This document shows, in pieces, positions 9,886 to 64,000 of a stretch of 64,000 nt of DNA. The DNA comes from Cylicocyclus nassatus. Lineage: Eukaryota > Nematoda > Chromadorea > Rhabditida > Strongylidae. Made by a program: the position numbers and the translations under genes. Positions within the stretch are counted from its first letter, which is position 1; every line of letters begins with the position of its first letter. Location: positions 41,606,833 to 41,670,832 of the forward strand of contig CATQJL010000112.1 in assembly GCA_958299035.1 (NCBI GenBank), in the 5' to 3' direction. The notes under the pieces were generated by a model. That model was not told where the DNA came from. It searched no databases and was given only the letters and a program-made list of their open reading frames with translations.

Positions 9886-9988
9886 ATGCTTGAGCAACAG
9901 AATGCGAGTGGAACTGACTGGGTACATGTGGTCGTGGTTGAGGACACCAGCAGGACTGGTCTCGTTCCTTGCTCAATTCTCTTGCCAG
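9886..9988 (+). CDS. unc-73: unc-73 exon: C-terminal half of an SH3 domain
   Basis: The acceptor TTTTCCAG precedes a phase-0 start and the donor is CCAG|GTGAGA, ending in phase 1. The 34 residues read MLEQQ...DWVHVVV...[11 protein letters not shown], which fits the second half of an SH3 fold: a Trp in the n-Src/distal region and the Gly-x-Val-Pro-x-x-(Ile/Leu) signature. In UNC-73/Trio an SH3 follows PH1 and precedes DH2, so position and strand fit. The larger open frame around it (9733-10062) is read-through of both introns. The next exon must start in phase 1, but the 13,949 exon needs phase 0, so either an exon between them is missed or the 13,949 exon starts a separate transcript. Confidence 0.65.
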
Positions 9989-33900: not shown

Positions 33901-36900
33901 AGCGCATCAAGCTGATGGTTTGCTTCCTCCATTGAAATTTGAACCAAATAGAGTAAGGCAAGTAAATTGAAAATGAGTGTGTTTATAGATTATTGAAAAA
34001 TTTGGCGCAAGACTTATGGTGCCTATTTATCAATCTAATGGACACATGCCATTCGCTGCAGAGCTAGCTCAGCTAATAATATGTCCACCTTTTTTGCTCC
34101 CAAATTAATAGAACTGTGTGGGCAATCAAAGCTACAAAAATTGGGTACCGTAGTTTGACTACTTGCTCATAAACGCTCTCAAGAGATGTTGGTTGGTGGC
34201 AAATCTTTAAGCAAAGTTGATGCGTAGATTGTGCTACTTTAACTTCTGTCCTTTTCTGAGCACTACTTCGACCTTATGCACTTTCCATCTTCTGGTTAAT
34301 CTACTTTTGATATGCTTTTTATAAACAAATGGCACAAAAAGGGCTCTGAACTGAATGCTCTAATCTAAGCATTACCTAAGCTCAAAAATATACGAGTGTG
34401 AAAACTAGAAAACGAATGCGATTCTAAACGGCAGGGCTGGGTTTTCGTAGGACTTGTGAATCTTTAGTAGCTGTGAACGGAAAAAAATTTGCTCTTGAAA
34501 GGAAGTATAGGATTACTATGAGAATGGTCGAAGCTTGTATTATCGAAGAAATGCACCTCGCAATTATTCACAAACAACAACGTTATGAACGATCTGAAAT
34601 TTCTTGGGTTTTTGTTTACCTCTAAACTGATTTTGTAACTTTGATACTTTTTTCGGGCTTCTCAGAGCCACAGCGTTCCATTTTCCATGGATTTGAAGAT
34701 AACTGTTTTTTTTTTGAAAGTCCAAATCAAAGAACTCGCGCATGTTAGATTCGATAAAGTTTTTACAAGAAAAAATTGCTGACGAAAACTCGCAAATCCA
34801 TTCTCCGATATGCCAATCCTGAGGGGATTTGTTGCTTTTTTGGCGATTACGTCAGAGTCTCGTTCCCAGAGTGTTGCCCTCGGCTAGCTGGTCTTAGCTG
34901 CCCCCGTTTTGCACTTGAAGTCGTAAGTCGAGCTTAGGAGTGCAGCTTCATCGTGTGATTTCGCTCTGGAGAAAAAAATGTATTTCCAGTTCTACTAGGT
35001 CGCTGCAAGTCATTAGCATTCTGCATATGCTCATCTTTGAACTCAAATTTCTGCAAGAATGCTCTGTTCAACATATGGACAGTGTTCCTCCAGCAAAACA
35101 TCAACTATGAAAGAGTAATCAAAGTTCGAGAAATCCAAAATAGGAAGGTTGGGTTTGGAAGACCCCTACAGTTTTTGAAGGGCTTATTTGTAAGGAAAAG
35201 CAAAGGTGGAATATTTTGAGCTAGCCAAAACTCGAGCTGGTATACTTTTCAAGTTTGATAGAAGAAAACTGAAAGCAATGCAAGACTGTCACACTCTTTA
35301 CTTTTGTTCTAACTACTCATACGTCCTTGCTTCGATATGCTTTAGGTTTTCACTTCTTTCGAGCAATGAAGGCTGGAAGGCTCTAACGCTTACGCTTTTT
35401 ATCTACAAGTGTTTATTTTATGAGTGTTATCCACATGAGGGCTGCAATTGAACCCCTACTTTTAGGTGGGAAAGACGGCCTGCGACGAAATAAGAAACCG
35501 TCGAGACTCCATGATGACTTTGTTCCAAATGTATTTCATGAGATGAGATTTGGATATTGGAAAGAATGTTTCGTCGCGATCTTACTGTTGGGGTAATTCA
35601 ATGAAAACCTTTTTACTGAAAGTAGATTCTAAACATTTAATGATTTTCGAATCGTTGTGAAATTTTCTTTCTTTTGAAATTAGACCTCATGAAAATTATT
35701 TTGAACAAAATCATGGAGTCCTGACGGTTTCATCAAGATTGATATGTCGCAGGCCGTCTTTTCTAGTGGACTTAGGGGCGCAGTTTAGATGATCTCTTTT
35801 AATCAGCTACAACCCACTAATATTAGGTTGCTGCATAAGTTCTGTCCGATTTGAAATTTTTGAGTTTAAAATGTCATAACTTCTTTCGAAGTCAACATTT
35901 TTCCGAGAATCTTGGCTTCTATATGTTGTGCAGTTCCTTGGCTATCAGAGACCTATTGAGATCTGCGAAACTCCTTTTCGAGGAAGAAGCAGGAACTCCA
36001 ATACTTCACAGCGTTTGCCTCCAAATCTGTCTTTTTTGACATGTTCCGTTATGAGAATTGATAGGCATCTTAAACAACAATGGATAGATAAAAAATTTTT
36101 GTAGATTCTTTTGCAACACAAAAGACCATAGGGTCTGCCGAGAGATTTTTTGAACGGGCAAAAAAGAAGCCACTTTTTGACCTTGCTTTTTGACCATGTG
36201 TGCATGCCTATTCACAAAGTAAGAAAATTTTACAATTGAGGTGAGAGCGCTAAAAAAGAATTGGTGGATGGGCCCTCCTGCATCTACTAGCTTTCTACAC
36301 CCTTATTCCGCAACCAATAAAAAAACTTGACTTGAGGGGCGCATTCTGGAGATTTCCTAGCAAGAACATATTTCTGGAGTGAGAACGTACCTCGGCGACT
36401 GGAGATTTTATGTCTAAAATCTCCTAGCACTAAAGAATTTATTGAAATTTGATATGGTGAAAAGAGCGAAAAGCACTTTCTAATAATGCTAACAATACCA
36501 CATTAGAGATGAAATTCTCTTAGAACAGCTGCTTCAAACATAAAGCAAAAAAAATCGGACAGAAGTTATGCAGCAGCCCAATACATCAGAAACTCTCTTC
36601 AGTATGCAAAGGCCAACTTTTTTCAGATAAATTTCAAGAAAAAAGCTTGCGTAATGAATGTTCCCATTTTGCAGAGTTCACGATTTCTACAGCCGCTGCT
36701 CGGGGTCGCAAGCTGCGAGTACCATGCCTTGCGAAAAGGCGAATTAGATTTGCACGTCGGAGAGAAGGTAGGTGGTTCTCTAGCATAGTTTCTGCTTAAA
36801 TTAGGTAGGTAGAGGTCGTGCTGTTCAAGGTTTTGCGAACCTAGCAATTTCCACAGAAAAAAGATAGACAGGCTCTCCAACACCGTCCGAAAATCTATTA

Positions 36901-39900
36901 GGTTGTTGAATTATTTCTCTTACGCTTTTTCCTATTTTCTTCTGGAAAATTCCAGAAGCTTACTGAAAATCACAAATTTGTGATGCGCTTAGAACATAAC
37001 AGGGTCTCGTCATCGGCATAATTAGCGCTACAAATGACCAAGTTACGGCATTTTTGCAAACACTCATTTCCACAATTTTTTTGAAATGTATTTTGGTACT
37101 ATCTCCACAATGAAGGCACTCCGGTGCCTCTAACGTTCGAAAAGAGGAGTGAAGGAGTGAAAAAAATCAAAAAGATCGAAAACTGCTTTAAATTTTTCAT
37201 CTTATGTGTGTCGTGTAGAAATGAATACAGGAAGCTCAGAAATAATTTTTTGAAGACGTTTTCTTTGTTAGAATGTTGTGATTGCAAAGATAGCGCACTT
37301 GACATTTGAACCGCTCAGAAAAAATGTGTGACATGCTTGTCACTCCCGATCCCCCTCCCCCCCCCCCATATTTGCTGAACGCAACTGTGTCCTGCCTGAT
37401 TACCACATCGCCCGGTCTCTCGTTAGTCGACTGGAAGAAACAATTCAGTTGTAAAAATGGGAACAAAGCGGATTTTCTGCCACAAAGTGAGTGTTTTGCG
37501 CACGGACCGCGGACGAGACAGTACTGATGAATACGTTTCAATCCTGCTTGAGTTCTTAACCCATTGTTTTCACCCATGTAACTTTGTCTCAGAATAGCTC
37601 TCAGAATTCCATTTCGGATTTCTGGAAATGATTTGATAATCAGGAACGACCGGAACTTTTGCATTGCAATATTTTTTTCGCATCTTCCACCTGGCCGCTT
37701 TCACTTTTTGGAGTTCTTTTGCAGCGACCTTTTATACTGATTTATTCAATCCCACAGGAATTCGATCTGTAAGTAGTGCAAATTACAAGCAAAAAATGAT
37801 TCAATTCGCCAGCAAATTGCAGAGTTTTCATGTTTTGTTTCATGTCTCGTGTAATTATAGTGCGCAGTTTCTTTTTTCGGACAAATTTTAGAAAATTATT
37901 TTGACTCAAACTATTGATTACCAAAGTCCTTTGAACGTTTGAAATGAAAACTCCGCAAATTACATAGCTACACTTAGACAATTTCAAAACAATAGGTTGG
38001 AAAGTGCACCGTTAATCAGCGCTAGGCAAGAATCACTTCACGACTGTAACTTCTGAACAAAGATACAGATATAAAAGTGACACTGAGTCAGTTACTCTTT
38101 GAAGGAATTAATTAATATACCAAGAGATCATCGTATAGGGGAAGAAACCGTACGATAGCACGGCTCCAACACAATATTGTACGTTAGCCTTCAAATCTTC
38201 ATACATATTTAACCTGCCTTTTGAGTAAAGCTTTTTATCCCACTCAGAGGGTGATTGTCCTTTGAGTACAGATTTTTTGTTAGTATGCCAATCAACCATT
38301 GACACTGGACCCGACGAAGAACTAGACCAGCATCAACGCAGCTTTTTTTCTCATGACTGGGTTGCGAGGCGATTTCTGTGAACCTTTCTTGATTAACCTC
38401 AAAATATCCAGGACTTTATTGGCATACAAAAACCCTTAACAGTCGCATTTCGTTTCAGGTCGAAATTCTCGACGTGAGCTTTGGAGTTTCTCATGTACTG
38501 AAAAATGATGGAACGTGTGGAAACGTGCCGAGCTATTTTTTGGAGCTGCGGGATATTCCTGGCAACACTTTGGCGGAACAAATCAGGTAAAAATCCTGTT
38601 CCCTTCAGAAGTTTGCCATTCTAGCGGTTGATTGAGTGAGGTCTTCTAAAAATTATTTTCTTACAATACGTGATTTTCAGTTATCGTCGAATGTGGCACG
38701 CGCTGGTGGATGAGCTTGTGCCTATACTACCTCCCTTTTCACCGCTCACGGGTCAACGCTCGCACTCAGAACAATTTCCTCTGGTAAAGTCGACTGCACG
38801 AAATCGCCCGGGTCCCTGTAGGCTGAACGCTCGCGAGCGTGCCTGCAAGCGCCTGCCGTGTACAGGCGCCATGATGACTCATGCATGCGAATGCCAATGT
38901 TAGCTCGCCAGAGACACGGCGTTCAACCCATGCGATTCTGTGCAGTCGACTATGACTTGTAAACGACTACAAAGAAGATTCTACAGCACTTCCCTTCAGA
39001 TCCTGGACGAGCGACCACAGTTTGTTCTTCCGCTCGCAGACGTAACCATTTGTGAAGGAGAAGATTTGGTCCTAAGGAGCAAGATTAGTTCCGCCTCGCC
39101 TTATACGGTTACATGGCGAGGAACAGCTGTACAAAGCGGGAGAGCTCAAATTGAGGTGAGTTGCTCACTCGATGTCAAACACAGCGAAAGTTTTTCTCTC
39201 TAGCATGATGCCGATTCTACGTCCATGAGGATATCCAAGATCGCTGCACTAGAATGTGGGCCCTATTCTGTGATTGCTGAAAATGAAAACGGTTCATCTT
39301 CAACACTTGCCGTTGTCAAAGTCATAGCCCGCCCAGGTACATCAGTTTCTCTTTTCACCTTTACATATGTACCAGTGGCAGTCCCAGGATTTCCATTCGG
39401 GGGGATGGGGACGGCAAAAACATCCCAAAAAATTTTTAGGGGTGCTTCTCAAAATTTTTGTGGGTCCCCACCCCCGAAAATTTTTTTCTATAAGGCTAAT
39501 TTGAATTTTTGAAAAATTTCAAAAATTATTTTGATTGTTTACAGAAATAAACAAGTCACTTGCACAATTTTATAACCCACGTAATTGGATTTCAAAAATT
39601 TCGCGACCAACTCTCAGAGGCCCCCCTCCTTTCCTTGGCCCGCCACTGATATGTACGCGAACATGTCGAATGGCTCGAATGGCTCGATACCCGCTTTGGC
39701 TATGGCAAGACTGGCATCAGACATCTCGTGAAATTCATTTCAAGAAAATTCACAGACCCTGTAGATCATAAGATCAGGAGGGGAACGAAAAAAGTTAATT
39801 TCGGGGGTGCAGGAGCTAATTGTAGAAGAATATTAGCTTCACTAGTGAGCTCGTCTCTCGCTGGTGTTCTGCAAATTTAAATTTTCAGCGAAGAAGGCTA

Positions 39901-42900
39901 GTAGCATATCATGAACTCCATCGTTCAGTTCTGGATAAACAACCATGATCAGGTATTCTAGATGCTCCGACTGCGGTAGTTTGTGAACGAGTTGGAAGGA
40001 ATGCTCTCCTCCTTAGCTGGAGCCCTGCAACAAGATCTGACATTCTCTTCTGTGTAGAATACAAAAGCGAAGGTTGGTGCGTCATTTTTTATGGTAACAA
40101 GACTGAGCGTGAGGTGTGGAGGGATGAATCGGCTGATCAGCCTAAAAGTACAATTCTTGCAACGCAGCAAGAACGGACCCTCATCGCAGTCTATACTCCT
40201 TCCCAGCCGATTGGAATAAAACTTCGCAGGCATTGGACATACTTCACGCGATTTCAATCGCAACGCGACTTGGCGCCAAATTTCTACAAATCAACATTTG
40301 CAGACTACAATTGTATTGTGGGTATCACCTTAGCAGGTTATAAAATGCTCCATCTATACCTACATAAAGCTGAGTGTTGGAAAATTGTTAGTTTGTGAGT
40401 TCTTTAACACACTGATGACCGTTTGACACACCGTGTGTGTAAAGCAATGACTACCACGTGGGACCGCTTGACACACATGATGTGTCAAAGCTTGAACTTC
40501 GTTGAAATGACGACTATCTCAGTACAAACTCATTCCAAAAGTTTTGTTTTGCTGTGAATCTAGAAGTGACCTCTATCTTCTTTGTCAACCTTCCACAGTA
40601 CTGTAGGTATACTGTCGATGGCACTATGCGTGATCTTATCTAAAAAATGCTGACTGGTCCGTGAAAATCTTGGTCCCAAGAGGTGGACAATAAAAAATTT
40701 GGCGTTGTCGTCAATGTGTTGAAGAATTTTTTGTGTACTCAGACAATCGACGGGACCCCTCCGCCGGACCCTCCGAAACTGCCAGAGTCGCGCCGGACCC
40801 AGTTGACCAATGAGAGAAGGGCAAATGGGCAGTCCATCGCGGTGACATCACTGGCAGGCAAATGGGAGGCTTCTCCGGCCCTGCTGCAAAGGTCCGCCAT
40901 TTCTCCGGCGCGACTCTGCCAGATTTGGCGGACTCCGCGCCGGAGAAATTTGCGCGGCGCGTGTCCGCCAAATTTGGGAGAGCCGCGCAGGAGAAAATGG
41001 GAGGGGTCCGGAGCAGAAATGGGAGGTATCCGGAGCAGAAAATGGGAGGTATCCGGAGCAGAAATGGGAGGTCTCCGCCGGAGAAATGGGAGGGCTCCGC
41101 CGGACAAATGGGAGACCCACCGCTGGGGAAACGCCGCGACCCTGCCATTTCTCCGGCGGAGGGGTCCTATCCGCTGCCTGAGTATGGACGGATCAGTGCC
41201 AAACTTTGCACACTTATGTTTTCGACACCGTTTCACCTCATAGACTACTTTTCGAGGCGAAAATCCCACTCCTTCTATTGATTTATCTACTTATCATGTA
41301 ATATCAAATCAATTCCAACTCGAGTAACAAAAGCAGTAGACTTATTTTTATACCACGATAAGGGAGATTCGGTAATTGATGGGGTCAGCAAGTATCTGCA
41401 CTGCATTACAAGAAAAAGAGAAGGAAACCAGCAGATGATTTGAACCTTTAGAGTTAGGCACCAATTCTGCTCGTGGTTGAACTAGTTGAACCCACAGTGC
41501 AGACGAAGCTGGGCATGCCAGCTAGTCTTTTATACTTTCGGAATGCGCTCACGACGAGTCATAAACGGCTGGAGTTGCCAGATCGCATCGCGACTGAAAT
41601 CGCGTGAAGTATGCCTGCGGCCATGCGCTTTTCTCCAAACTTTGAGTCTGATTTAGTCTCTGAAGGCTGGCTCTGAGTCCTGGAAAACGCATGCCCTATA
41701 CTGAAGACCGTAAGACCTGGCTTAAGTAAATTTGTATTTTTATCGAACTGAAAACAGTTTACATGTTGTAATGGCGCAGCTACTCCCGAGGATGCTACTT
41801 CCTACTTACAGGCTGAGATCAAGATTCTACTAGAAAAGGCTTATCCCTACTTATTGGCTAACTCCGCTCACCCTTTTATTTCTAGTTTGCGATTGTTTGG
41901 TACCGGCTCATCTTCATTTTTGAACTGTTTAGAAAATCCTTATAAAAAGGTTGAATACGGGATACTGACCATGAGAGAAATGCGCAATGATCTTGCGCTA
42001 AGCTTATGTCAACAGTTTTAAATGAAATTTAGATATGTCGTATTTTCGTTGTGCTGCTTCCGCACTGCGATCTACTACAATCTCACTACGTCACTTCCGC
42101 TCCATTAGATATCGGATCCGGATATTTGCTTACAACCTCTGTTGCCGCAGCAAACCAAGCAAAGAAGTCGAAGTGGACTTTAGAAGCGAAGTCAGCCTCA
42201 TTGTGAGTTTACATAATGATCGCTTTTTTCAATATCAACAATTACAGAATGTTTGAAAAGTTTCTGGCCTAAAGTATTTCTGCGAATCTTAATTCGCTTT
42301 TTACTATATGTGCTCGCTAAATCTAGAAACCACCCAATCAACAAAGAAAATATTTTTTGCCTCAAGACACCCGGAAATTTGGAAGTAAACAATTTTTTCA
42401 GCTTCCTTGAAGAGGCGGAAGTGGATAGATTCGTTCTTCTTTTCTTCAATGCCGGAAAACATAAACAACTTTCCGTATTTTTAATGCAAATATTCCTAAG
42501 TTTACACTTTTTTTATAACAAAAGTTTTCAGTAGCTTGCAAACGCTGATTTTTTATGTGCTTAATTTCAGTAGGCAATCGCGGCACAAGTTTGCGTTGAA
42601 ATTTTTTCATTTTGAAAGTTTTCGGAAGTCTTGTTTCAAGTGTATCTGTAGCACAACTCATTGAACTTCCTTGCATCGTTTTTAAAAAGTTCACACTTTC
42701 GTAAAGATTTTGAAGATAATGTATAAACAATTTGGCGCTGCATATCTTGACGAAAAATCCTGAAACTGAATTTCTTGTCTTTCAAGGCACTGTATTTCAT
42801 AATGAACTTTCTATGAAAATAAAAGCACATGTAAGAAACCTTAAAGAAAGAGCCTTCAAAAGTTAGACCAATGTTTCTGTAAATCATGTTTCCTTCTTTG

Positions 42901-45900
42901 TAAGAAGCGTTTCAAGGAAAGAGGTTTGGAAAGCTTTATTGATGTGTTTCGATCTGATAAAAAATCAAAGAAACCATGAAGAAATATCCATGAACTATTT
43001 TGATATTCACTGAAATAATGTTATCTAAGCCAAATGAGTACAGTAAAACAAAAGGCGCGTCAAAATTGAATTGGAAGTACTTCTTTAGACCAGGTACTTT
43101 CCAAATGCCTTGTTAAAAAGTTGGTGAGGTCTCTCCCGACGGTCACTTCTTATAAAATCACTTTTTGTATGTCTTGCGGCCGTTTTATGCCTTTGGATGG
43201 TCTGAACTTACTTCGCGAAACTGGTTGTAAGTGAACCTAAAAACATGACTCAAAACAAAAGCTTTAATATTCTCACTCTTTTGCTAGACAAAGCTGTATA
43301 GTCTGCAGATGTTCAGAATTTCACGTAGTGTCGACATGCTTGTAGATCCTGCTACACAGCTTCTTAGTCTCTTTTCTGAAATTCTCCTTCATACGATCTG
43401 TGTATAAAAGCGCTATATGGTGGAATGGACGCATTTCTACATTGATGGAGAGCGAACGGTGATTTGCACCATATTGTATATCTAAACCGAGGCGGACCTA
43501 TAGAATGGTACCTTAGGAGAGGCGAAGGACATTCAAGGGAGAAAAGGCTACGATCAAACAGTGTGTCCACTTTTCAGGGCCCTTTGTATACTAAATAAAC
43601 GGTCTTAGTAATATCCTAACTATTAGCGTCTCAAAGTTATTGAAATTTTTTGAATTTTTGATAATAAGCCCCCCCCCCCCTCCTCCACTCCTCCGCTCAG
43701 CTCAGCTCTTTCTAACTCAAAGCTAGTCGAGGGGGAGAGGCAGTCAGATGACATAAGAAGGCAGTCAGACCACATAAGAACAGTATGCTCAGTTGTAGAC
43801 GTATTGTAACTCAACATATGGCATTGAGGAAAATGCGTCGGACTTAAGAGATTCTATCGAGCTTGGGGAGGTACTGGGTCGGGGACGATTTTCCACAGTT
43901 TATGAAGCAACGCACATAAAAACGCAACGTACTGTAGTGGTAAAGATGCTTATCGAAGGAAGAGATAAAGCAGACACTGAAAGAGAGGTAAACGTTGTTT
44001 AGACGTCCACTCATCTTAATATGTGAACTTATTTCTAGGTTGCAATACTTTCGATGCTACATCATGCGCACATGCCTCGACTCAAAGGCATTTTTGTATC
44101 GGACGGTCGCTACTGCATAGCTATGAAAAGGTTTGCCTAATGACCAGGGCTCGGCACGAGCTGGCACCGGAGAAATTTCAAAACGAAGTCCCTTTGATCC
44201 TGAAAATTTTGTACGAAGTCTCCTTTGACCTATTTTGAAACCGTCATTATTTTTAGATTATGTAAAAGTATGTAGTAGGGTTTCCATGCACGCTGATCTC
44301 AAGAAACAACTTTTCACAACTTTCTGAGCTTTTTAAGCGGCTGAATCACATCTTGAGAACCAGAAAAAGCCGATTTTTCGACTGCGGAGCAGACCGAATT
44401 TTCAGATGTCTATAAAACGCTAAAAAACATTATGAAATTGTTTTTTCTTCGTATGTAAATTTTTACAGTGTACTTTTTACATTTTATGTAAAAAAGTATG
44501 AAAACTTATGTGAGCAAAGTGTCGGTGGCACCCAGCTGGCACGGTGCTAGCTAATTCAGAAAAAAATTCAGCACAGCTTTCATTCACATAACTTTTCATA
44601 AATTTCTCGGCCCTAGTTCGGGTCCCCCAACGCGCATGTACACACCAAATTTGGTACCATACTATTGCGTTTTGGCTGAAAACAACGCCTTTGTTTATTT
44701 GATGGACAGATGCCGGTGGCTTGCCGGCGGCATTCTTGCGGCTCTTCTCCGCCCCGGACCTTGGAAAAACGATATCCCCTTTGCTTTCCGCCCTAACGAT
44801 ATCCAGCTTGACCCGGTGCCAGCCGTGCCGAGGCCTGCTAGTGACAAAATTGTGAAACTTCATTAAAACTTACAGGATGGCTGGGATCCCGATCTCCACA
44901 TACGTTGAAGATTACGTGCACGCAGATGAGGTGGGCAGAAATCCTGAAGAGCTCATGCGTCGCCTTTCCATGGATATCCTATCTGCACTTTCATATCTGC
45001 ACGGAAGGAGCATTGTGCACCTGGATGTCAAAGTTTGAGTTTGAAGAGATGCGGGCTTTGAACGACAATACTAAGAATTTCCAGCCGGCAAATTTGCTAG
45101 TTTCTGAATGGGTTTCACTGATAGATTTTGGTTGCGCGAGGTTTGTGGAGGCTGCTGATTTGGACTGGGGAGACGGCGACAAGAGGTAAACAGTGCCTGG
45201 AAATAATGCAAATAACAATTATAAATAATGATAACAATAAATAATAATAGCAAGTGGAATAACTTAAACAACTACGAATAAACAACTGAAAAGTTCTTCA
45301 TGCTTGACGCAAATATTTTCAGCTACTCAGCTCCAGAGCGGATAGCGGGGAAACGTCCATCAACAAAATCGGATATCTGGTGAGCGTTTAACGCTGCCGT
45401 AGCTTTTAATTTCTATTAATAAAAAAACTGAAGGGAAAATAGAGCAGCTACACGATTTACACTTTCTACCAGCTCCGAGGCTTAGTAGTAGAGCTGAACA
45501 GGGGTTACTTAATGATTTTTTTAGAACTTTAACTTGGTTGGCAATTCTCAGATGTCAGGTTGGCGCTTGTTTTAAACTTCTCAACTCTTATTTTGATTTT
45601 TGGAGTTATATAGATTGTGTTGTAAACTTTGTTAACATAATAAAAAGAGTTTGAGCAAATTTTTAAAATTGCTGAGAATCGAGTTTTATAGTTTTTGAGC
45701 AAAAACGAAGCCGTGCACAACCTGAAGCTAGAGATTGACTTATTGAAGTGTTATAAGTCTGACAAATAAAGAGGGCTTTCAAGGATCCAACAAGTTGACT
45801 ACGAAAATTGGAGCATTAACCAAGCTGTGAAACCCGCGAAACTGCCAAAACTTCGGATGGGGTAACGATAAGCTGAAGACGAACATCATATTCATCTGTT

Positions 45901-46571
45901 GCTAAATGGAGCAATTTCACCTTGATCTTACGAAATAGGCCCTTTCATGAGGAACAGGATGCTTTGTAATCAGCATATCGAAACCGCTTGAACCTAGTTT
46001 CAGAAAAACCTGAAGTGATCTATTTCCCTTGTACCGTAAACCTATCGTAACCCAAACATACAATTGCGGAAATCGACAAAACGGCTGCATTTTTATATTG
46101 CTCATAATTTATTATAGATAAAACAGTGATTGAATGCACCACAATCGAAAGACAAATTATTTAGATCTTTGCATTACTTATGCTCAACATAACAATAAGA
46201 ATAGATGATTTAGGTCATTTGGAGCGGTACTGTTTGAGACGTGCTTTGATGCTGCTCCACACACAATGCTCGCTGCACTAGCTTTGAACGCGGAGCAGAG
46301 GTCACCAGCGTTGATCTCCTTTCTCAACGAGGTATGCTATGAAGCAGGTCCTGAAGTTTATCCCTACACGATAGAATTCACTCAGGTGCTCGCATTTGAT
46401 GCGGCACGACGCCCGTCGGCAGAAATGTGCATGCAAAACCAATGGTTTGGGGTATGTTCTGACTGTTTTTGACCTAAGATAGTATCGAACTTACTTTAGG
46501 CCTGTAATCAGCTCCAAGTACCTCACGAAAAACGGGAATTCAGGTCAAGAAGTGCCAGTTTTGAAGGCTGA
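9886..46571 (+). CDS. unc-73: UNC-73/Trio-like Rho guanine-nucleotide exchange factor with C-terminal kinase, 3' part of gene
   Basis: Gene-level entry for about 25 exons. The domain order is SH3 (second half), basic Ser-rich linker, DH2, PH2, Lys/Ser-rich spacer, Ig, FN3, protein kinase. From the ATG at 13,991 all junction phases agree and give about 1,130 codons: DH at residues about 242-420, PH about 425-575, Ig 640-735, FN3 736-825, kinase 850-1108. DH2-PH2 of this family activates a Rho GTPase in axon guidance, migration and synaptic signalling; in C. elegans the second GEF acts on RHO-1. The layout DH2-PH2-Ig-FN3 without a second SH3 is the UNC-73 layout, while the kinase is a Trio/Kalirin feature that C. 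elegans lacks. The sequence upstream of the SH3 half, with DH1 and the spectrin repeats, is not in the window. Three possible ends (after 27,842, at 28,884 and at 46,571) suggest alternative isoforms. The joined model is inferred from splice consensus and frame only. Confidence 0.9.
9989..13948 (+). other. Intron or inter-promoter DNA, one uncertain exon
   Basis: No recognised domain. At 10,208-10,529 an open frame follows the possible acceptor GATGTTAG at 10,200-10,207 and is in phase with the SH3 exon. It is Cys-rich (WLCEICC), matches no family I know, and competes with a 126-codon open frame on the minus strand. The rest is AT-rich with no gene. Confidence 0.4.
13949..14243 (+). CDS. unc-73: unc-73 exon: basic Ser-rich linker, possible internal start
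   Basis: The frame opens directly after the acceptor TAGCCGCAG; the codon just upstream is a stop. An in-frame ATG at 13,991 gives [11 protein letters not shown], so this could be the first coding exon of a shorter isoform that starts upstream of DH2, as known for C. elegans unc-73. It contains a basic block ([15 protein letters not shown]) and many Ser-Pro/Thr-Pro sites ([11 protein letters not shown]). The donor CATTCAG|GTCTTT ends in phase 1 and joins the next exon to give HSDAPSSS. No globular domain. The internal-start idea is an inference. Confidence 0.75.
14244..15409 (+). other. unc-73 intron, about 1.2 kb
   Basis: AT-rich, with only minor frames such as 14,638-14,916 that lack splice support or domain similarity. 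No repeat element was identified. Confidence 0.6.
15410..15485 (+). CDS. unc-73: unc-73 exon: Ser-rich linker
   Basis: It is bounded by GTTTTTCAG and GAG|GTAAGA. It enters in phase 1 and leaves in phase 2, reading [16 protein letters not shown] and then VIKRKSL. The last two bases join the first base of the 24,391 exon to make an Arg codon, giving KRKSLRRIFGSS. This is a disordered basic linker with candidate phosphosites and no catalytic motif. Confidence 0.8.
15654..15771. repeat. Two-copy tandem repeat, 57 bp
   Basis: The unit beginning ATCCAAAGTGGGTT and containing CCATTTCGAAG and CTCGTTGTTG occurs twice, at 15,654 and 15,711, with small differences. It is intronic, and the open frames over it on both strands are chance. 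Confidence 0.75.
17480..18229. mobile_element. Mariner-like MITE, 750 bp, family A copy 2
   Basis: The ends are TTGGGTTGTCCAAAAGTC and the complement ending AACAACCTGA, flanked by TA on each side (17,478-17,479 and 18,230-18,231). Inner blocks (GGTATCATTCGACAGAGC, CAAGCTCTGCATGA, ACCAAAGGTCCACT) match those of the 3298 copy, so the two belong to one family. It lies inside the long unc-73 intron. Confidence 0.88.
24391..24481 (+). CDS. unc-73: unc-73 exon: linker with natural six-His run
   Basis: The acceptor is GATTACAG and the donor GAA|GTGAGT. It enters in phase 2 and exits in phase 0. The peptide includes RIFGSSNP, then [13 protein letters not shown] and RRKRLSE: a histidine run, a serine run and a basic cluster. 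It lies N-terminal to DH2 and is probably disordered. The phase match with both neighbours across 8.9 kb supports the call. Confidence 0.85.
24851..25039 (+). CDS. unc-73: unc-73 exon: acidic linker before DH2
   Basis: This is a phase 0 to phase 0 exon of 63 codons between TTTATAG and ATG|GTGAGT. It starts [15 protein letters not shown] and ends [17 protein letters not shown]. No folded domain; acidic and Pro-rich near the end. The frame stays open for another 100 codons past the donor, to a stop at 25,340, so a longer variant is possible. Confidence 0.8.
25040..26225 (+). other. unc-73 intron, possible exon extension at its start
   Basis: The first 300 bp are open in the upstream exon's frame ([10 protein letters not shown]...). 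If retained, this gives a truncated product without the GEF domain. The rest is AT-rich with only small frames. Confidence 0.5.
26226..26341 (+). CDS. unc-73: unc-73 exon: charged segment entering DH2
   Basis: The acceptor is CTTTCAAG and the donor ACA|GTGAGT. It reads [16 protein letters not shown], then [11 protein letters not shown] and [10 protein letters not shown]. The last bases join the next exon to make KRHYVLMEL, which matches the start of the Trio DH2 domain. The acidic/Lys-rich stretch could be a short coiled helix. Confidence 0.85.
26394..26564 (+). CDS. unc-73: unc-73 exon: DH2 (RhoGEF) domain, CR1 region
   Basis: After CTATTTTAG the peptide runs [17 protein letters not shown], the conserved region 1 helix of Dbl-homology domains with its invariant Glu (ELVETE) and DYV. 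It continues to [20 protein letters not shown] and [14 protein letters not shown]. It is strikingly close to the Trio/Kalirin DH2 pattern. The donor AAGAA|GTAAGT leaves in phase 2. Confidence 0.97.
26621..26690 (+). CDS. unc-73: unc-73 exon: DH2 domain
   Basis: It lies between TTTGCAG and AAATAT|GTGAGT. It reads [20 protein letters not shown] then VKY, the helix after CR1 and start of CR2 in the DH fold. Phase matches both neighbours. Confidence 0.95.
26823..26909 (+). CDS. unc-73: unc-73 exon: DH2 domain, CR2 region
   Basis: It lies between CTTTTGCAG and GAACAG|GTTAGT, 29 codons in phase 0. It includes [17 protein letters not shown], matching the [11 protein letters not shown] stretch of Trio-type DH2 domains, and ends EDFEQ. 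Confidence 0.96.
26963..27127 (+). CDS. unc-73: unc-73 exon: DH2 domain, CR3 catalytic helix
   Basis: It lies between GTTTCTAG and GCG|GTAGGT, 55 codons in phase 0. It contains [20 protein letters not shown], the diagnostic CR3 helix of RhoGEFs that contacts the GTPase switch regions, with the conserved KPVQR and YxLLLK residues intact. The GEF module should be catalytically able. Confidence 0.98.
27180..27281 (+). CDS. unc-73: unc-73 exon: end of DH2 and start of PH2
   Basis: It lies between AATTTGCAG and CAA|GTGAGT. It reads [19 protein letters not shown] and then [14 protein letters not shown]. MMxVGRLQxFDG is the family signature linking the last DH helix to the first PH strand. Confidence 0.96.
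27336..27491 (+). CDS. unc-73: unc-73 exon: PH2 domain, first strands
   Basis: It lies between CTTTTAG and ATG|GTAAGA, 52 codons. It contains [15 protein letters not shown], the beta-3/beta-4 hairpin typical of RhoGEF PH domains, then [18 protein letters not shown]. In this family PH2 helps position the GTPase on DH2. Confidence 0.95.
27541..27660 (+). CDS. unc-73: unc-73 exon: PH2 domain, middle strands
   Basis: It lies between CTATTTTAG and GAAAAG|GTTTGG, 40 codons in phase 0. The peptide [20 protein letters not shown] and then [13 protein letters not shown] matches the second beta-sheet of PH2. The donor GTTTGG is weaker than its neighbours, but the frame continues exactly. Confidence 0.93.
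27712..27842 (+). CDS. unc-73: unc-73 exon: PH2 C-terminal helix
   Basis: The acceptor is AATGTTTAG. It reads [20 protein letters not shown], the C-terminal alpha-helix of the PH fold with its conserved Trp, then a Gly-rich end ([16 protein letters not shown]). The donor AT|GTGAGC overlaps a stop: unspliced, the frame reads ATG TGA and stops at 27,844-27,846. Spliced, it joins the 28,677 exon in phase 2. Confidence 0.92.
27843..28676 (+). other. unc-73 intron, 0.8 kb
   Basis: AT-rich with no open frame of note and no repeat recognised. It would become 3'-UTR if the adjacent in-frame TGA is used. Confidence 0.6.
28677..28884 (+). CDS. unc-73: unc-73 exon: Lys/Ser-rich tail with alternative end
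   Basis: The acceptor GTTTGTAG joins in phase 2 to give [20 protein letters not shown]. The tail is rich in Ser, Thr, Lys, Gly and Pro ([27 protein letters not shown]), disordered and with several S/T-P sites. It ends in two ways: a TAG stop at 28,882-28,884 (PVGKLK end) for a GEF-only isoform, or the donor CCACCG|GTAGGC after 28,866, in phase 0 and compatible with the Ig exon at 39,000. Which is used needs transcripts. Confidence 0.85.
29432..29437 (+). terminator. Poly(A) signal for the short unc-73 isoform
   Basis: An AATAAA hexamer lies 550 bp after the stop at 28,884, followed by a GT-rich stretch (GGTTGTGCATCCTGATGTTTTG region at 29,450-29,471). This supports transcripts that end after the PH2 tail. 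Confidence 0.6.
30386..30815. mobile_element. TIR element (MITE), about 430 bp
   Basis: AACTTAAAGGCAGTGTCTCA at the left mirrors TGAGACACTGCCTTTAAGTT at the right. The interior is GC-richer than its surroundings and carries a meaningless minus-strand frame (30,463-30,735). Target duplication not clear. Confidence 0.8.
31160..31445. repeat. Two-copy tandem repeat, about 141 bp
   Basis: Units start with AATCTCAACTGGTTATATT (31,160) and AATCTCAAGTGGTTATATT (31,301) and share TTTTTCCTGG, ATTTTCGA, GGTTGTTT/GATTGTCT and TGCGTCATTAC blocks. Two diverged copies, non-coding. Confidence 0.8.
35823..36581. mobile_element. Mariner-like MITE, 759 bp, family B
   Basis: The TIRs are TTAGGTTGCTGCATAAGTTC at the left and, on the complement, TTGGGCTGCTGCATAACTTC at the right; the similarity runs about 30 bp through CTGTCCGATTT. 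TA flanks both ends (35,821-35,822 and 36,582-36,583). It is a different family from those at 3,298 and 17,480. No transposase is evident in its small frames. Confidence 0.9.
39000..39155 (+). CDS. unc-73: unc-73 exon: Ig (I-set) domain, first half
   Basis: The acceptor is CTTCCCTTCAG and the donor GAG|GTGAGT, 52 codons in phase 0. The peptide [20 protein letters not shown] then YTVTWRG has the I-set start (PxF..PL.DV...EGE.L) and the core Trp of strand C. The strand B cysteine is absent: the position reads LVLRSKI. An upstream in-frame acceptor at 38,945 and an ATG at 38,952 would add about 18 residues or start a separate isoform. Confidence 0.9.
39204..39336 (+). CDS. unc-73: unc-73 exon: Ig domain, second half
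   Basis: The acceptor is CTCTCTAG and the donor CCAG|GTACAT; enters in phase 0, exits in phase 1. It reads [20 protein letters not shown] then [13 protein letters not shown]: the strand E, F and G pattern L.I...  .D.G.Y.C.A.N..G, but the F-strand cysteine after Tyr is Ser-Val. The canonical disulphide therefore seems lost, as fits an intracellular Ig fold. Confidence 0.9.
39373..39648. mobile_element. hAT-type MITE, 276 bp, copy 1
   Basis: It begins CAGTGGCAG and ends CCGCCACTG, flanked by a perfect 8-bp target duplication ATATGTAC (39,365-39,372 and 39,649-39,656), the hallmark of hAT transposition. It sits in the intron between the Ig and FN3 exons, 36 bp after the Ig donor. Its inner sequence (GTTTACAGAAATAAACAAGT) is the inverse of part of the 55,491 copy. 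Confidence 0.93.
39962..40072 (+). CDS. unc-73: unc-73 exon: FN3 domain, first half
   Basis: The acceptor is TATTCTAG, and it joins in phase 1 to make a [14 protein letters not shown] start. It continues [20 protein letters not shown], the A-B-C strands of a fibronectin type III fold with the core Trp (LSWSP) and the VEY of strand C. The donor GAAG|GTTGGT leaves in phase 1. Confidence 0.88.
40073..42032 (+). other. unc-73 intron within FN3, 2 kb, nested repeats
   Basis: It contains the GC-rich TIR element at about 40,735-41,182. Outside that lies a longer inverted pair: TACTTCACGCGATTTCAATC at about 40,238 and its near-complement around 41,580-41,620, a related copy of which is seen at 19,847. 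A short duplicated motif with CTTGACACAC is at 40,420-40,490. Confidence 0.6.
40735..41182. mobile_element. GC-rich TIR element with internal minisatellite
   Basis: The left end TACTCAGACAATCGACGGGA runs into CCCCTCCGCCGGA; the right end is its near-complement (TCCGGCGGAGGGGTCC then CTGCCTGAGTA). Inside, GGAGCAGAAATGGGAGGT-like 20-bp units repeat about four times near 41,005-41,100, along with many CTCCGCC/GGCGGAG words. Five overlapping open frames on both strands reflect the composition, not genes. Confidence 0.75.
42033..42202 (+). CDS. unc-73: unc-73 exon: FN3 domain, second half
   Basis: The acceptor is GAAATTTAG. It joins in phase 1 and exits in phase 0 at ATT|GTGAGT. The peptide [20 protein letters not shown] then [11 protein letters not shown] has the FN3 strand E-F-G pattern: Tyr-x-(hydrophobic)-x-(hydrophobic)-x-Ala-x-Asn and the S.PS end. 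Together with 39,962-40,072 it makes one complete FN3 of about 88 residues. Confidence 0.88.
42203..43798 (+). other. unc-73 intron, 1.6 kb
   Basis: AT-rich, with overlapping low-complexity frames on both strands at 42,250-42,890. A C12 tract at 43,669-43,680 is followed by a pyrimidine stretch upstream of the kinase exon. No element recognised. Confidence 0.6.
43799..43987 (+). CDS. unc-73: unc-73 exon: kinase domain, glycine loop and Lys
   Basis: The acceptor CAGTTGTAG follows an in-frame stop, so the frame opens exactly at the exon; the donor is GAG|GTAAAC. It contains [17 protein letters not shown], a glycine-rich loop (GxGxFS) of the Trio/Kalirin type, then [19 protein letters not shown] with the ATP-binding Lys (about residue 878) and the helix C Glu. 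63 codons in phase 0. Confidence 0.95.
44039..44130 (+). CDS. unc-73: unc-73 exon: kinase N-lobe
   Basis: It lies between ATTTCTAG and AAAAG|GTTTGC. The peptide [20 protein letters not shown] then [10 protein letters not shown] covers helix C to strand 5 (the LHHAHxPxLKG pattern of Ser/Thr kinases). Exits in phase 2. Confidence 0.92.
44131..44875 (+). other. unc-73 intron, 0.75 kb
   Basis: It contains overlapping open frames on both strands (44,477-44,866) in a GC-richer part at 44,690-44,850. They have no kinase-like content and no phase-compatible splice sites, so I treat them as chance. Confidence 0.6.
44876..45032 (+). CDS. unc-73: unc-73 exon: kinase hinge to catalytic loop
   Basis: The acceptor is CTTACAG and the donor AAA|GTTTGA. 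It runs [19 protein letters not shown] to [21 protein letters not shown] is the catalytic loop with the general base Asp (about residue 973); Leu in place of Arg in HRD is normal for the Trio, MLCK and DAPK kinases. The exon breaks inside the catalytic loop. Confidence 0.93.
45085..45185 (+). CDS. unc-73: unc-73 exon: kinase catalytic loop end and DFG
   Basis: The acceptor is TTTCCAG and the donor AAGAG|GTAAAC. It reads [20 protein letters not shown], giving the metal-binding Asn (KPAN) and the DFG motif, then an acidic activation segment ([13 protein letters not shown]). The preceding intron is only 52 bp. Confidence 0.95.
45323..45379 (+). CDS. unc-73: unc-73 exon: kinase APE motif
   Basis: The acceptor is ATTTTCAG. 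It joins in phase 2 to give [21 protein letters not shown]: the APE motif that closes the activation segment and the invariant Asp of helix F (SDIW). The donor is TG|GTGAGC. Confidence 0.93.
45380..46213 (+). other. unc-73 intron, 0.8 kb
   Basis: AT-rich and without a recognisable exon or repeat; the minor minus-strand frames at 45,529 and 45,917 are chance. Confidence 0.6.
46214..46451 (+). CDS. unc-73: unc-73 exon: kinase C-lobe
   Basis: The acceptor is GATTTAG and it joins in phase 2 to make [12 protein letters not shown] (helix F). It continues through helices G and H to [20 protein letters not shown], with the helix I Arg (RRPSA). RPSA...QxQW closely follows the Trio/Kalirin kinase end. 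The donor GGG|GTATGT leaves in phase 0. Confidence 0.93.
46500..46571 (+). CDS. unc-73: unc-73 last coding exon
   Basis: The acceptor is TTACTTTAG. It encodes [14 protein letters not shown], then RSRSASFEG and the TGA stop at 46,569-46,571. The tail has an RSxS basic phosphosite-like motif. The frame is fixed by the kinase exons, and a poly(A) signal follows 28 bp later. Confidence 0.88.
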   Translation, partial: ACNQLQVPHEKREFRSRSASFEG

Positions 46572-46598: not shown

Positions 46599-46604
46599 AA
46601 TAAA
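46599..46604 (+). terminator. Poly(A) signal for the long unc-73 isoform
   Basis: AATAAA, 28 bp after the TGA stop, followed by a T-rich stretch (TATATTTTCTCATTCTG). It implies a very short 3'-UTR. Confidence 0.75.
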
Positions 46605-48361
46605 CTATATTTTCTCATTCTGCTATCTCAGATAATGATGATTGTTTTCCGTGAATGTGGAAATCAACTTTTTGAGCTATACAGTGGGCTCAGAGACAAA
46701 TCCAAAATGTTGCGAAATCTCAAAAAGTACCATCCAGAAGTTCTATAGCCGATTGGATCGATTATCATTCTCTGATACTGTTATGGTAGCACCATCAAAT
46801 TTTCGTGCAAAAGAGCAAGATATTTTTCTTTTCAATTCATATCCCCCTCAATAGGTCTCAATGTCAGTAATCCCACCTTTTCTTCGCAACCCGTTCCGAA
46901 CAAATAAGCGATGAGAACAATTATTGGAAAATTCTGCCGTAACAGAGCCTGCCTAGCTTTGCAGTTCTCAAAGGCTTTTAATATACAATCTAAAACTACA
47001 TCCCGACTCTGCTCAAACAGACGACAGCAGCATGCGTTTGATGCCAAGATTACTAAACAGCGAAGGGACCATCTATGAAGAAATTCTTGCGGGTGTATGT
47101 CAAGAGGCACACTTCTTGATTTCCAGATAAAAAGCGTATTTTCAGTATTTTATGATGTTCTGGAAGTAATTTAATTTCATAACAAGCTAAGTCTCCCATA
47201 CCCGATGCTTTGGTTGCTCGATCTAATTATTTTGAAACAGAATCAAAACATAAGTGTAGGGATCGAAAGCCCGTGAAAATGCAACTAATAGCGCTTTTGT
47301 GTTTATTTCAATCAAGTTTCTTACAAACACCGTCAAACTTAGCTAGTGGCTTACAGCCACGAATCGCTTACATGGCCGGTCGCCTTCGAAATATTAAGAC
47401 AAAAATCATGAACAAGTCCCTTTACGCATGCAAGATCATTTTCATCGAAGTGCGAATTCAAAAAATCAATGAATTTTGTGATTCACTCGCACAGTCACGT
47501 GGCGTACCGCTGCCCAACATGTTATTTAGACTGAGCTCTTCCTGAAGCAAGTTGATTAAATCGAATGTAAGGGGTAACACCAAGCTTCCGAGTTTACACA
47601 CTGGCATATTTCGGTCTTCCGAGGTGAAGAGTGGCCTAGCGAATCTTAAATAACCAGGTTTCGTTAAATTCGGAAAATTCGCCATAAGCCATGCAATTCC
47701 ACGTTGCAATCAAAACGGTAATCGTCATAGCGGTTCTAGAACTTCCGAGAAGTGCAAAGTCTAACTTTGACAGTAGTTGGTAAAGAAATATAGTACCGTC
47801 TTCATGTGTCATCGGTATGTTGCAGTCTCCTTCTTGTAGTAGCAAATAGTGAGATGAAGGCGATTGAGGTTTGAAGTTATCTCGTTTAATAGGTCTACTT
47901 ACCCCGGTCTACCATGGCTTTCGCTTCCCTAACCTAAAGCTTCTTCAGTAATAAAACATGAACCACTGATCCGCCCAAGAATGGGCGCAAATTTTGTAGC
48001 GGTATAGACAGGCTATGAAAGATAACCAATATGGCTTGTAGAGTAGCTTGTTATCTATATAGCAATGCGTCACCTCTGCTTCGCAGAGGCACTAGCCCTA
48101 CTTTCTGTATGCCTTACTCATTCCCGCATAGTAATGACATTGAAACTCAATTTCTCGGGCAATGCAGGCTATCACGAATGATTTATAAAGCTACTCATTC
48201 CGAGAGTGTGTGAGATCGGTATTTTCGCATCTAAAACCACCACAAGTAATCGAAACTCTGAGCCGAGAAATTTCAAAGCAAATTCAACGGTCTTTGCGGT
48301 CCGTCTGCCCTGTATAAAAATCCTCAGCCCGAAGCGACTGCAGATCTTTCGCTTTATATTC

Positions 48362-48513
48362 AAAGACCACCTCCTCAATAACAAAGGACAAAGCAAGGGA
48401 TTTAAAAGTGCTTGTTATGTGCAAAGCCTCAATCAGCGTGGATCGAGGCTTTGCACATAACAAGCACTTTTAGATCCCTTGCTTTGTCCTTTATAATTGA
48501 GGAGGTGGTTTTT
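48362..48513. repeat. Long hairpin: 69-bp arms, 14-bp loop
   Basis: The left arm 48,362-48,430 (ending TTATGTGCAAAGCCTC) and right arm 48,445-48,513 (starting GAGGCTTTGCACATAA) are inverted copies with only about three or four mismatches. The loop is 48,431-48,444. Transcription would give a long, nearly perfect stem, a possible source of small RNAs or a recent fold-back insertion. Confidence 0.92.
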
Positions 48514-50888
48514 GATCACGTTGCCGACGCTTTCCATGCAGACAAGCTCAAGACTGAATTGCACTTTGCCTATGAACACTGCAACACTCTGGACCCTTGC
48601 CAATGCAAACCATATGCCTGTCATTGAGTGCATACACACAGCATTACTCTCTCGACTAGGCGGAGCCTTCCTCTGCACATCTTTGTTGATTCATTAATCG
48701 CAGAGCAGCATTGTAAACGAACAGACAGTCACATCTATCACAAACGGACAAGTACCGTTTCGTTAATATTATAGAAGGATTTTGTTAGGTTGTAAAGAAA
48801 TTTCCCGAGCACACGCGAAATTTTTCTCAAATCGCTGTAACTTCAAGCAGACTGTTCTTTTTGAAAGCTGCGAACCTTTCTGCAAAGGCAATGTTGTCTA
48901 CAAGATTCTAGTTTGCTGGATCCCTCAGCACTTCTTTTCTGGCCATTAGCATACGCAGTATAAAAAAGGTCGACTTATTGCTAGAATTTGGCCTGTTAGT
49001 GCAGGAATTTCTCAGGCATGAAGAGAGCTGGGGAGCTCATACCGGGTAGTTATGTAGAACTCTGCTGCGGCAATTTTAAACTGTGTCACAGTTCTAAAGC
49101 AAAGCCTGTAAAAATTTTTTTCCGGAAAAATTGAAAAATCAGAAATTTGCACCTTGAAAATGCCCCATTTTTGAGTAACTGAGTTTGACGTCTTTATTTT
49201 TTTCACGAAATGAACCCAAACCTTTGATTGCTCCAGAAATTATTGGGGTGTTGTCTTGCACATCTTTTGGGCTCATCACTGAGGAGTGAATAGTATGGTT
49301 TTAACTTGTATTTCGCCTGCCCTTTCAGACATCGATTGCGAAAACAGGTACGGCCGAATCTTTGCGCGTATTGTAAAATCCGAGCAAAGCTGCGATTTTG
49401 AAGCGGACAACCTCTTTACACTGGTCAAACCCTTAAATGGTTTTCTTTGTTCGGTCGAAAAACTGGCAATAGAAAGAAGAATTGGTTATCGGTGCACACA
49501 CTTCCTTTCTTTTGCGGTTGTAGGTCATAGGTCTGACATCGATGAAAAATGTGTGCGAGCGTGGAAAGCTTAAGGATTCTTCTACAGAACCATATAAAAT
49601 TTGTCATATGAATTTAGCCTAGAGCGAAAAAAAGAGCCTGAAAATACAATTTCCAAAACTGCCTGGGAACTTTCTCTACAACCCAATACAAAGTAACTAA
49701 TGAAAATGACTGCAACCGAAATTCAAAACTTGAATATGAAAATTTGAAGTTTTCAGTTATGAAAATGAACTTGGTTTCTCTCAAACATAAATACAGCTTA
49801 AAGGCAGAGTTCACCCAAATTTTCTCTGCCATGTTTTTATCGTTATCGGGTTCCATGGCACTGACTTTGGAGTGGGGTTCAAATCACCGGAAGCTCCAAT
49901 ATTGCCCGTTTCTGAAACCTATTTTGGCAGACGTGACCCGGCGCTAGTCACGTCGCTGCAACAGGAACTCTTGTCGTGTGCAACAGTGCTACATCACAAA
50001 CTGTGCCTCTCGACGTTGCTTGTCATGTTAGAGCACGTCACGGGGCAAGCTGTGCGTGGGTGGAGCGCAAAAAAGGGGCGGAGCGCAAAAAGAATCCAGG
50101 TCCGATCTTCTTTTGTAGGCAACACTAGCGGACCAAACTAACGAGGTTGGTCTACTTTTAGGGTCTGCTAGTAGGAAAAGTAGCATGGGAGCATGGACTG
50201 AGTAGATTTTAGACATATGCTGTCTCTTTAAGCTTTGCTCCCCAAAAAAGCGTTGCGCGTTCTCTTCCATGCACTACTGAAAAATTTTGCTTTCATGAGT
50301 AACACCGATTAAGATGTAGTAGCTTTGAACTCTCAAAACCACTTAAAGGCAACGGTTTTCAATATATAGTGTTTTTGTTTTTTGAAACATGTATTTTCAT
50401 ATTCTTCGTCCAATGCACATGTTTGAGCTTGAAAGGCAGGCCAGTAAAAACCAGAGGTTTGGGTGAAATGGAAATCCTCAATAAGAGAGGTCCATGAGAC
50501 TTGCTTCAACACCGATTATGATTTTGTATACGGTTCAGTTGCTCAGTTTTGGTGGAGGTGTTGCGCAGTAGCACAACTGACAGATAATTTTCTGCGCCAG
50601 TTTGAATGCAAATAATGGCATGCTTTGAGAGGTTTTCAAAAATTGATCACGCGATCGATCAACACTGTTTCATTGGATTTGACAGTGACAGCAGACCCAG
50701 GAAGAGTATCCAAAGTGCTATGGATCAATTCCCTCAGCGCCAAGTTGGCTCGCTCACAAAGCCGCTTCTCAAAAGGTTTTATTATCCGGACACCTTTCCA
50801 TAAGCACCTCAAAGGACAGTACTACGAAAGAAGCTTAATCAAATTAGAGAATGGATCCGTGTTAGTTAGAGCTTTTCGTTGCTAGTGC

Positions 50889-63289: not shown

Positions 63290-64000
63290 CTCAGTTGCCA
63301 GCTCACCAAAAAGCTTCCCTGCCCCAGTAAGGACAGCTATCATATGAGGCCAGCTTTGCTGTCGTCCTCAAACATACTCTTCAACGAGATCGAAAAACTA
63401 TCCACGGCCTCAGATGACCCGAAAGATTTCCCCTGACACCTTTGAGCAATCAAGTCAAGGATCATTCACCTGGAGCGAAAAGCAAAGTTGAACGCAGACA
63501 GAGTTTGGCGTCGAATAATCGTCTCCAAATTTCCCGAATCCATCTGTACGACCGCTATCCAAAACGAAGCGGTACAAGATGATCCATTTGATGTTCGCGA
63601 AATTCTGAACACCATTGACAGCATCATTTCATTACGAGAAACAATCTTGCTAACGACGGCAACTCTTTTTCCAACCGACTACTTCTCGAATAACCAAGAA
63701 AATGAAAAAATTATCAGATGCGAAGAAAAAGAACACTTCTCGAAACGAAAACGCTTGTGTTTATGCGGACAGCCACACTCGCCTTACAAGTGCCAGAAGT
63801 ACATCACACCTGAAACTCGACGACTTGAAGCAACAAACTAAGGAGTGTGTTGGACATGTTTCGTAAGAAACCACACTCGGACGCTTGTACGAATATTGGA
63901 GTATGCCCTAAATGTAAGGGATATCGCACCATGGATCTCTTTGCTTGTCAGAAGTAAGACAACGTAGTGGATTTTCCGCGCACCGAGATTATGCACTCGA
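63290..64000 (+). pseudogene. Bel/Pao retrotransposon gag, decayed
   Basis: The frame 63,290-63,436 (LPCPSKDSYHM...) stops, and a second frame 63,488-63,837 reads KFPESICTTAIQNEA, then DPFDVREILNTIDSIISLRE and a zinc knuckle CLCGQPHSPYKCQKYITPET. The (I/L)xxKFPxxI... and LxxIDxIIxxRE patterns, followed by CxxCGxxHxxxxCxKYxTxxxR, are typical of Pao-type gag polyproteins. A TAA at 63,838 interrupts, and the next knuckle (GVCWTCF) continues only with a one-base frame change. A second Cys pair (CPKC) is followed by a TAA near 63,957. It is a non-functional copy cut by the window end. Confidence 0.75.

Follow-up and report, generated by a model that had tools for sequence, protein, structure and literature searches.

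A 64,000-nucleotide (nt) stretch of the Cylicocyclus nassatus genome (positions 41,606,833 to 41,670,832 of contig CATQJL010000112.1, hereafter the window) very probably carries, on its + strand, the 3′ half of a strongylid unc-73/Trio gene, whose longest product would end in the order SH3-DH2-PH2-SH3-Ig-FN3-kinase. The kinase probably already existed in the ancestor shared by several nematode lineages, was kept here, and disappeared along the lines leading to Caenorhabditis and Pristionchus. The high confidence given to these two statements, both read from sequence, applies to them jointly and excludes the question of whether the kinase is active, for which the confidence is lower. The nearest relatives of the window proteins are those of strongylid nematodes (Ancylostoma, Oesophagostomum, Necator and Trichostrongylus); related proteins are designated below by their numbers (P0121 and so on).

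Exons of the kinase and unity of the gene

The kinase exons (43,799-46,571, +) read in a single frame with GT..AG borders and end on a TGA at 46,569-46,571. Exon 1 (43,799-43,987) encodes the G-loop, the VVVK Lys and the helix-C Glu. It is followed by 44,039-44,130, by 44,876-45,032, which ends with HLDVK, by 45,085-45,185 (PAN Asn, DFG Asp and an activation segment with DWGDGD), by 45,323-45,379 (APE Glu and helix-F Asp), by 46,214-46,331 and by 46,386-46,451 (helix-I Arg). The last exon (46,500-46,571) encodes a C-terminal tail, ..SRSASFEG, common to P0001, P0005, P0121, P0122 and P0123, and an AATAAA poly(A) signal is found at 46,599-46,604 (+). Pfam Pkinase was matched with an E-value of 1.1e-42 (residues 21-277) in the uncorrected model and 2.4e-42 in the corrected one, which as a sequence match is far beyond chance. 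From Ig to the end, the product is 74% identical to Ancylostoma P0121, over 100% coverage.

A first-pass annotation of the window, made from the letters alone, had placed a complete Ser/Thr kinase after DH2-PH2, Ig and FN3, and this is borne out by the Pfam match, the single frame and the domain order. The frame and the GT..AG borders of its exon list also stand, but its exon 46,214-46,451 contains a stop-free 54-nt intron with GT..AG borders (46,332-46,385, +), whose 18 residues are absent from all six relatives covering this stretch (P0001, P0002, P0006, P0121, P0122 and P0123). At the other end of the kinase, the six relatives that span the junction (P0002, P0004, P0005, P0121, P0122 and P0123) have nothing matching the first 10 residues read from 43,799, so that 43,829 is proposed as an alternative acceptor; both acceptors are in frame, and 43,799 (TTGTAG) is the better-looking splice site.

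Seventeen further exons (26,200-42,202) are in the same frame as the kinase exons, and phases agree at the two junctions proposed in the first pass, 40,072/42,033 and 42,202/43,799. DH2-PH2 (26,394-27,842, +; Pfam RhoGEF 1e-39, SOS1_NGEF_PH 9.6e-25) is encoded by eight exons, 26,394-26,564, 26,621-26,690, 26,823-26,909, 26,963-27,127, 27,180-27,281, 27,336-27,491, 27,541-27,660 and 27,712-27,842, and is 95% identical to Necator UNC-73 (P0241). A linker exon (28,677-28,866, +) comes next, then SH3-2 and its linker (36,675-36,767, 38,459-38,586 and 38,681-38,783, +), assigned by homology to the SH3 segments of P0121 and P0123 and having a confidently predicted fold in P0121. Ig of the I-set type (39,000-39,155 and 39,204-39,336, +; Pfam 3.9e-9) and FN3 (39,962-40,072 and 42,033-42,202, +; Pfam fn3 0.001) complete the series. 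Farther upstream, a partial SH3-1 exon (9,840-9,990, +), named by eye, lies downstream of DH1-PH1, pieces of which were located on the + strand by tblastn, with a piece of human TRIO as the query, at contig positions of about 41,575,005-41,589,253, that is ~17.6-31.8 kilobases (kb) upstream of the window.

On one strand the order is DH1-PH1, SH3, DH2-PH2, SH3, Ig, FN3, kinase, which is the Trio order, both SH3 being assigned by eye or homology. Two DH-PH modules flank an SH3, as in the dual RhoGEFs Trio, Kalirin and UNC-73, and SH3, Ig, FN3 and a C-terminal kinase lie in the same gene, as in the long forms of Trio and Kalirin and as in P0122 and P0123. The identity as an UNC-73/Trio orthologue, claimed in the first pass, is supported by this order and by the closeness of DH2-PH2 to that of Necator. 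The FN3-kinase junction (..SLL/ENASEL..) is common to P0121, P0122, P0123, P0002 and P0005. Trichostrongylus P0123 is a model of 1,098 amino acids having RhoGEF, Ig and kinase together, and models from at least four nematode genera among the matches listed join RhoGEF to the kinase. P0122 is a frame of 589 amino acids covering SH3-Ig-FN3-kinase on a contig of 1,999 nt, which must then be intron-free, the matching stretch of the window being ~9.9 kb; we infer that P0122 is an assembled transcript. Eight of the nine scored genome matches to the kinase are exons of the window locus, and no second copy of the kinase was found among the scored candidates. Elsewhere, contig C311 has more RhoGEF pieces near its start (5,797-7,257, -).

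Shorter forms of the product may also exist. If the donor at 28,866 is read through, the protein would end instead in PPPVGKLK, with a stop at 28,882-28,884, and the Diploscapter model P0249 ends with the same residues, which makes a form of the window gene lacking SH3-2, Ig, FN3 and kinase likely on sequence grounds. Retention of the intron after the second FN3 exon would lead to a stop at 42,254-42,256, close to the point at which Caenorhabditis proteins finish. Downstream of this stop are two AATAAA sites (42,818 and 43,594), in the 1.6-kb intron that precedes the kinase. Alternative 3′ ends after PH2 (28,882) or FN3 (42,254) could thus yield kinase-less forms like that of C. elegans.

Distribution of the kinase

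The matches to DH2-PH2 numbered 544, of which 120 were listed, and more nematode models are possible. Among those 120, 31 selected Trio/UNC-73 proteins were examined with a profile made of five strongylid kinases (window, P0121, P0122, P0123 and Dictyocaulus P0002). The profile matched nine. Four are from nematodes: Trichostrongylus P0123, itself a profile member, Dirofilaria P0259, Mesorhabditis P0260, a truncated model, and Rhabditophanes P0266. The other five, from outside the nematodes, are the two fish proteins P0264 and P0305, P0313, the springtail P0331 and the hemichordate P0345.

Only models extending as far as FN3 are counted as lacking the kinase. Six of them, P0242, P0245, P0246, P0247, P0250 and P0251 (Caenorhabditis remanei, C. 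auriculariae, C. bovis, C. brenneri, Pristionchus pacificus and P. fissidentatus), have no kinase and stop 4-28 residues past the last FN3 strand; the model of Caenorhabditis sp. 36 (P0248) ends inside FN3, also with no kinase. Models ending before Ig, such as Necator P0241, C. elegans P0244, Diploscapter P0249, Trichuris P0252 and P0253, Heterodera P0254 and Steinernema P0261, are uninformative. In the six Caenorhabditis models among the matches listed, DH2-PH2 is 81-83% identical to that of the window and Ig is found in five; the five reaching FN3 end in it or just past it, and that of C. elegans ends after PH2. For C. elegans itself, the absence rests on a passage of PMC3541206, according to which neither the fly nor the worm orthologue has the kinase, so that they give no insight into its role; the first-pass annotation had likewise described both as lacking it. 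Tick, Limulus and scorpion models, which are outside the tree described below, showed no kinase among the matches listed.

A DH2-PH2 tree of 26 rows was built, with 16 rows scored (nine with kinase, seven without, P0248 being counted among the latter) and 10 unscored, one of them from the dragonfly Ischnura, with a model that stops shortly after PH2. The scored rows from outside the nematodes, four in all, were picked because they carry the kinase. The window groups with Necator and Trichostrongylus (support 100/100), within a nematode group (100/99) that stands apart from non-nematode Trio. Caenorhabditis, Diploscapter and the strongylids are nested together (83/76), while Mesorhabditis and Pristionchus branch outside. 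Presence and absence of the kinase require two changes on this tree, a count that by itself does not tell gain from loss. Since Dirofilaria, Rhabditophanes and Mesorhabditis have the kinase, as do those four rows from outside the nematodes, both changes are read as losses. Together with the seven models lacking it, this supports the first-pass proposal of an ancestral kinase lost in some lineages. The Trio kinase is dated to before the bilaterians in a part of PMC12198301.

Catalytic residues and shape of the kinase

The key residues named in the first pass are all present in the window: the G-loop (from 43,877), Lys (43,943), helix-C Glu (43,985), HLD Asp (45,024), catalytic Lys (45,030), Asn (45,091), DFG Asp (45,124), APE Glu (45,336), helix-F Asp (45,372) and helix-I Arg (46,410). 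Ten of the ten residues checked as expected of an active Ser/Thr kinase are there, namely the VAIK Lys, the helix-C Glu, the Asp, Lys and Asn of the catalytic loop, the Asp and Gly of DFG, the APE Glu, the helix-F Asp and the helix-I Arg. The same ten are kept in Ancylostoma, P0122 and Trichostrongylus, the Ancylostoma G-loop being GRGRSS versus GRGRFS in the window. HLDVK is found as well in the partial models Oesophagostomum P0001, Teladorsagia P0004 and P0005.

Four of the nine aligned nematode kinases (Dictyocaulus, Angiostrongylus, Dirofilaria and Rhabditophanes) lack one or two catalytic residues. HLDVN replaces HLDVK in Dictyocaulus P0002 and Angiostrongylus, and also in Parelaphostrongylus P0006; Dirofilaria P0259 has NFG for DFG; Rhabditophanes P0266 has HLN for HLD, with both the catalytic-loop Asn and the APE Glu changed to Asp. 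Mesorhabditis keeps eight of its nine covered positions, the APE Glu being changed to Asp, and the springtail kinase has HLDIE. As judged from these alignments, catalytic residues are eroding in several lines and kept in the window, Ancylostoma, P0122 and Trichostrongylus. The residues lost also differ with the nematode line (HLDVN, NFG or HLN, in P0002, P0003, P0006, P0259 and P0266), a pattern that looks like repeated independent decay.

The strongylid kinases are shortened between helices F and I. The stretch from the helix-F Asp to the helix-I Arg measures 50 residues in the window and in P0121, P0122 and P0123; it is longer in Dictyocaulus (57), in the other six kinases covering it, Dirofilaria and Rhabditophanes among them (62-65), and in vertebrate Trio (64). 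A segment following the kinase, SFIERRKHQND in vertebrates, DYLEDYKERRKEQ in Dirofilaria and DYLQEYFVRRN in Rhabditophanes, is not found in strongylids, six of which (window, P0001, P0005, P0121, P0122 and P0123) have RS(A/V)SFEG as their C-terminus. The C-terminal regulatory helix of CaMK-type kinases is likewise lacking, the window tail consisting of 23 residues that end in SRSASFEG. In the predicted P0121 structure the kinase fold is confident, and the predicted local distance difference test score falls below 50 from residue 579 on. A Trp in the activation segment is common to all eight aligned nematode kinases and absent from the four non-nematode ones. The kinase is 78% identical to that of the nearest relative, against 95% for DH2-PH2.

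Vertebrate Trio and Kalirin-12 have the same order, DH1-PH1-SH3-DH2-PH2-SH3-Ig(-FN3)-kinase, the same GRGRF loop and the same HLD-KP.N catalytic loop, but the fish Trio kinase is only 26% identical to that of the window, and the vertebrate protein lacks the short tail and the Trp. The Dirofilaria immitis Triple functional domain protein (P0259) is also a single model uniting RhoGEF, SH3, Ig and kinase, and it too has the Trp; it differs by its NFG and by its basic post-kinase segment. The closest solved folds are those of DAPK1/3 and of the titin and twitchin kinases. The DAPK loop is also non-RD (HFD), and in titin and twitchin Ig and FN3 adjoin the kinase as they do here, whereas none of these solved chains has modules of a guanine nucleotide exchange factor (GEF). 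DAPK and twitchin have C-terminal regulatory segments.

Other features of the window

A 22-nt tandem repeat (AAATGGGAGGTATCCGGAGCAG), in 5.4 copies at 40,995-41,114 (window 40,986-41,114), lies in the intron between the FN3 exons. An inverted repeat at 48,360-48,515, with 75-nt arms that are 93% complementary and 6 nt apart, is a hairpin or a small mobile element. A nearly identical stretch (RLEPSHLLHSSCHCA..) is shared by two open reading frames (ORFs) on opposite strands, 58,297-58,608 (-) and 59,248-59,559 (+), suggesting an inverted repeated element. A third, of 131 amino acids (63,446-63,841, +), has a Cys/His cluster near its end (CLCGQPHSPYKC) and is retroelement gag-like by eye, with no Pfam match. 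Pfam gave no match on three window ORFs near 61-64 kb.

Discussion

We lean towards the strongylid UNC-73 kinase being catalytically active, on the strength of its residues. A broader proposal is made more tentatively, at somewhat under even chances: strongylid UNC-73 would be a fusion of GEF and kinase, fully catalytic and freed from a C-terminal regulatory segment, whereas elsewhere in nematodes the kinase would have been discarded (Caenorhabditis, Pristionchus) or damaged (Dictyocaulus and other lungworms, Dirofilaria, Rhabditophanes) several times, C. elegans Trio being secondarily kinase-less. Kinases of this non-RD kind generally do without phosphorylation of the activation loop, and a C-terminal segment often restrains them. 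The strongylid kinase, a non-RD enzyme (HLD instead of HRD) similar in kind to those of DAPK, titin and Trio and with a full catalytic set, would not need such phosphorylation either. The basic, probably helical segment that follows the kinase in vertebrate Trio, Dirofilaria and Rhabditophanes would have given way to the short SRSxSFEG tail; the kinase, having no such segment, would be open, or else held by Ig-FN3. The GEF scaffold could then deliver an active kinase to sites of Rac and Rho activation, where it may phosphorylate cytoskeletal partners or its own RSxS tail.

The decay of catalytic residues in several relatives bears on this proposal, because it implies that activity may not matter. 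The domain could be part of the gene and yet a pseudokinase, a decaying remnant kept for binding or as a scaffold, an explanation that we find unlikely but to be taken seriously. It would fit the loss of a catalytic-loop or DFG residue in four of nine nematode kinases, with HLDVN in P0006 besides, the lower conservation of the kinase relative to DH2-PH2, and the shortened stretch between helices F and I; a passage of PMC9372627 moreover gives Trio kinase activity as unreported as of 2022. However, unselected drift would rarely spare exactly the ten residues kept in the window, Ancylostoma, Trichostrongylus and P0122, the kinase fold predicted for P0121 is confident, and an active kinase is cited for Kalirin-Duet 12 in a passage of PMC3541206. 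Other observations also weigh against the reading of the locus given at the outset. Dictyocaulus P0002 and Parelaphostrongylus P0006 end in ..WFQ, one exon earlier and without SRSxSFEG, these ends being either incomplete models or real; in the window model FN3 scores under the Pfam cut-off and Pfam gives no match for SH3-2; and the linker region from 28,866 to 36,675 could contain additional exons. The kinase trees, taken up next, are a further such point.

It is very improbable that the kinase is a DAPK- or MLCK-like domain captured by nematode UNC-73 at the position of the Trio kinase. A joint Trio clade was not found in a tree of 20 rows, though it was not rejected either (approximately unbiased test, p-AU 0.105), and groupings with DAPK (0.104) and MARK (0.141) were equally not rejected. 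An earlier tree of 31 rows, from which 11 long or distant rows, including Orchesella and a second Amphimedon kinase, were dropped to give the 20, does not separate Trio from DAPK either, and the branch to the nematode kinases is long. DAPK is the best structural neighbour, and in the PDB it ranks first for both the nematode kinase profile and the Dirofilaria kinase; the window kinase alone (uncorrected model) placed EGFR, MEK, ULK3 and SIK3 above it, a single-sequence ranking that is uninformative for so divergent a kinase. But vertebrate Trio kinase also matches DAPK best, so that likeness to DAPK is to be expected; the domain sits in the same place after Ig-FN3 as in Kalirin; loss followed by capture at an identical site requires more steps; and the dating in PMC12198301 puts the Trio kinase before bilaterians. 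Hardly any weight is given to a separate downstream gene, wrongly fused to UNC-73 by gene predictors in several strongylids, even though the intron before the kinase is long, with its two AATAAA sites, and the relatives' models appear automatic. The open frame of kinase exon 1 starts at 43,799 after a stop, with no Met before the VVVK Lys, and RhoGEF and kinase are joined in several genera. This origin was rejected on the recurrence of the same junction residues in several models and on the intron-free P0122, which spans SH3-Ig-FN3-kinase.

Trio and Kalirin with a kinase are already known, and databases already contain automatic nematode models. No description of a nematode Trio kinase was found in the literature searched, subscription journals being mostly outside that search; for Haemonchus kinome literature naming Trio, the only match, judged from its listing, was on RIO kinases. 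Its presence in nematodes close to Caenorhabditis suggests that Caenorhabditis UNC-73 is a reduced form. If the GEF-kinase proposal is true, close relatives are a natural series in which to look for the role of the Trio kinase.
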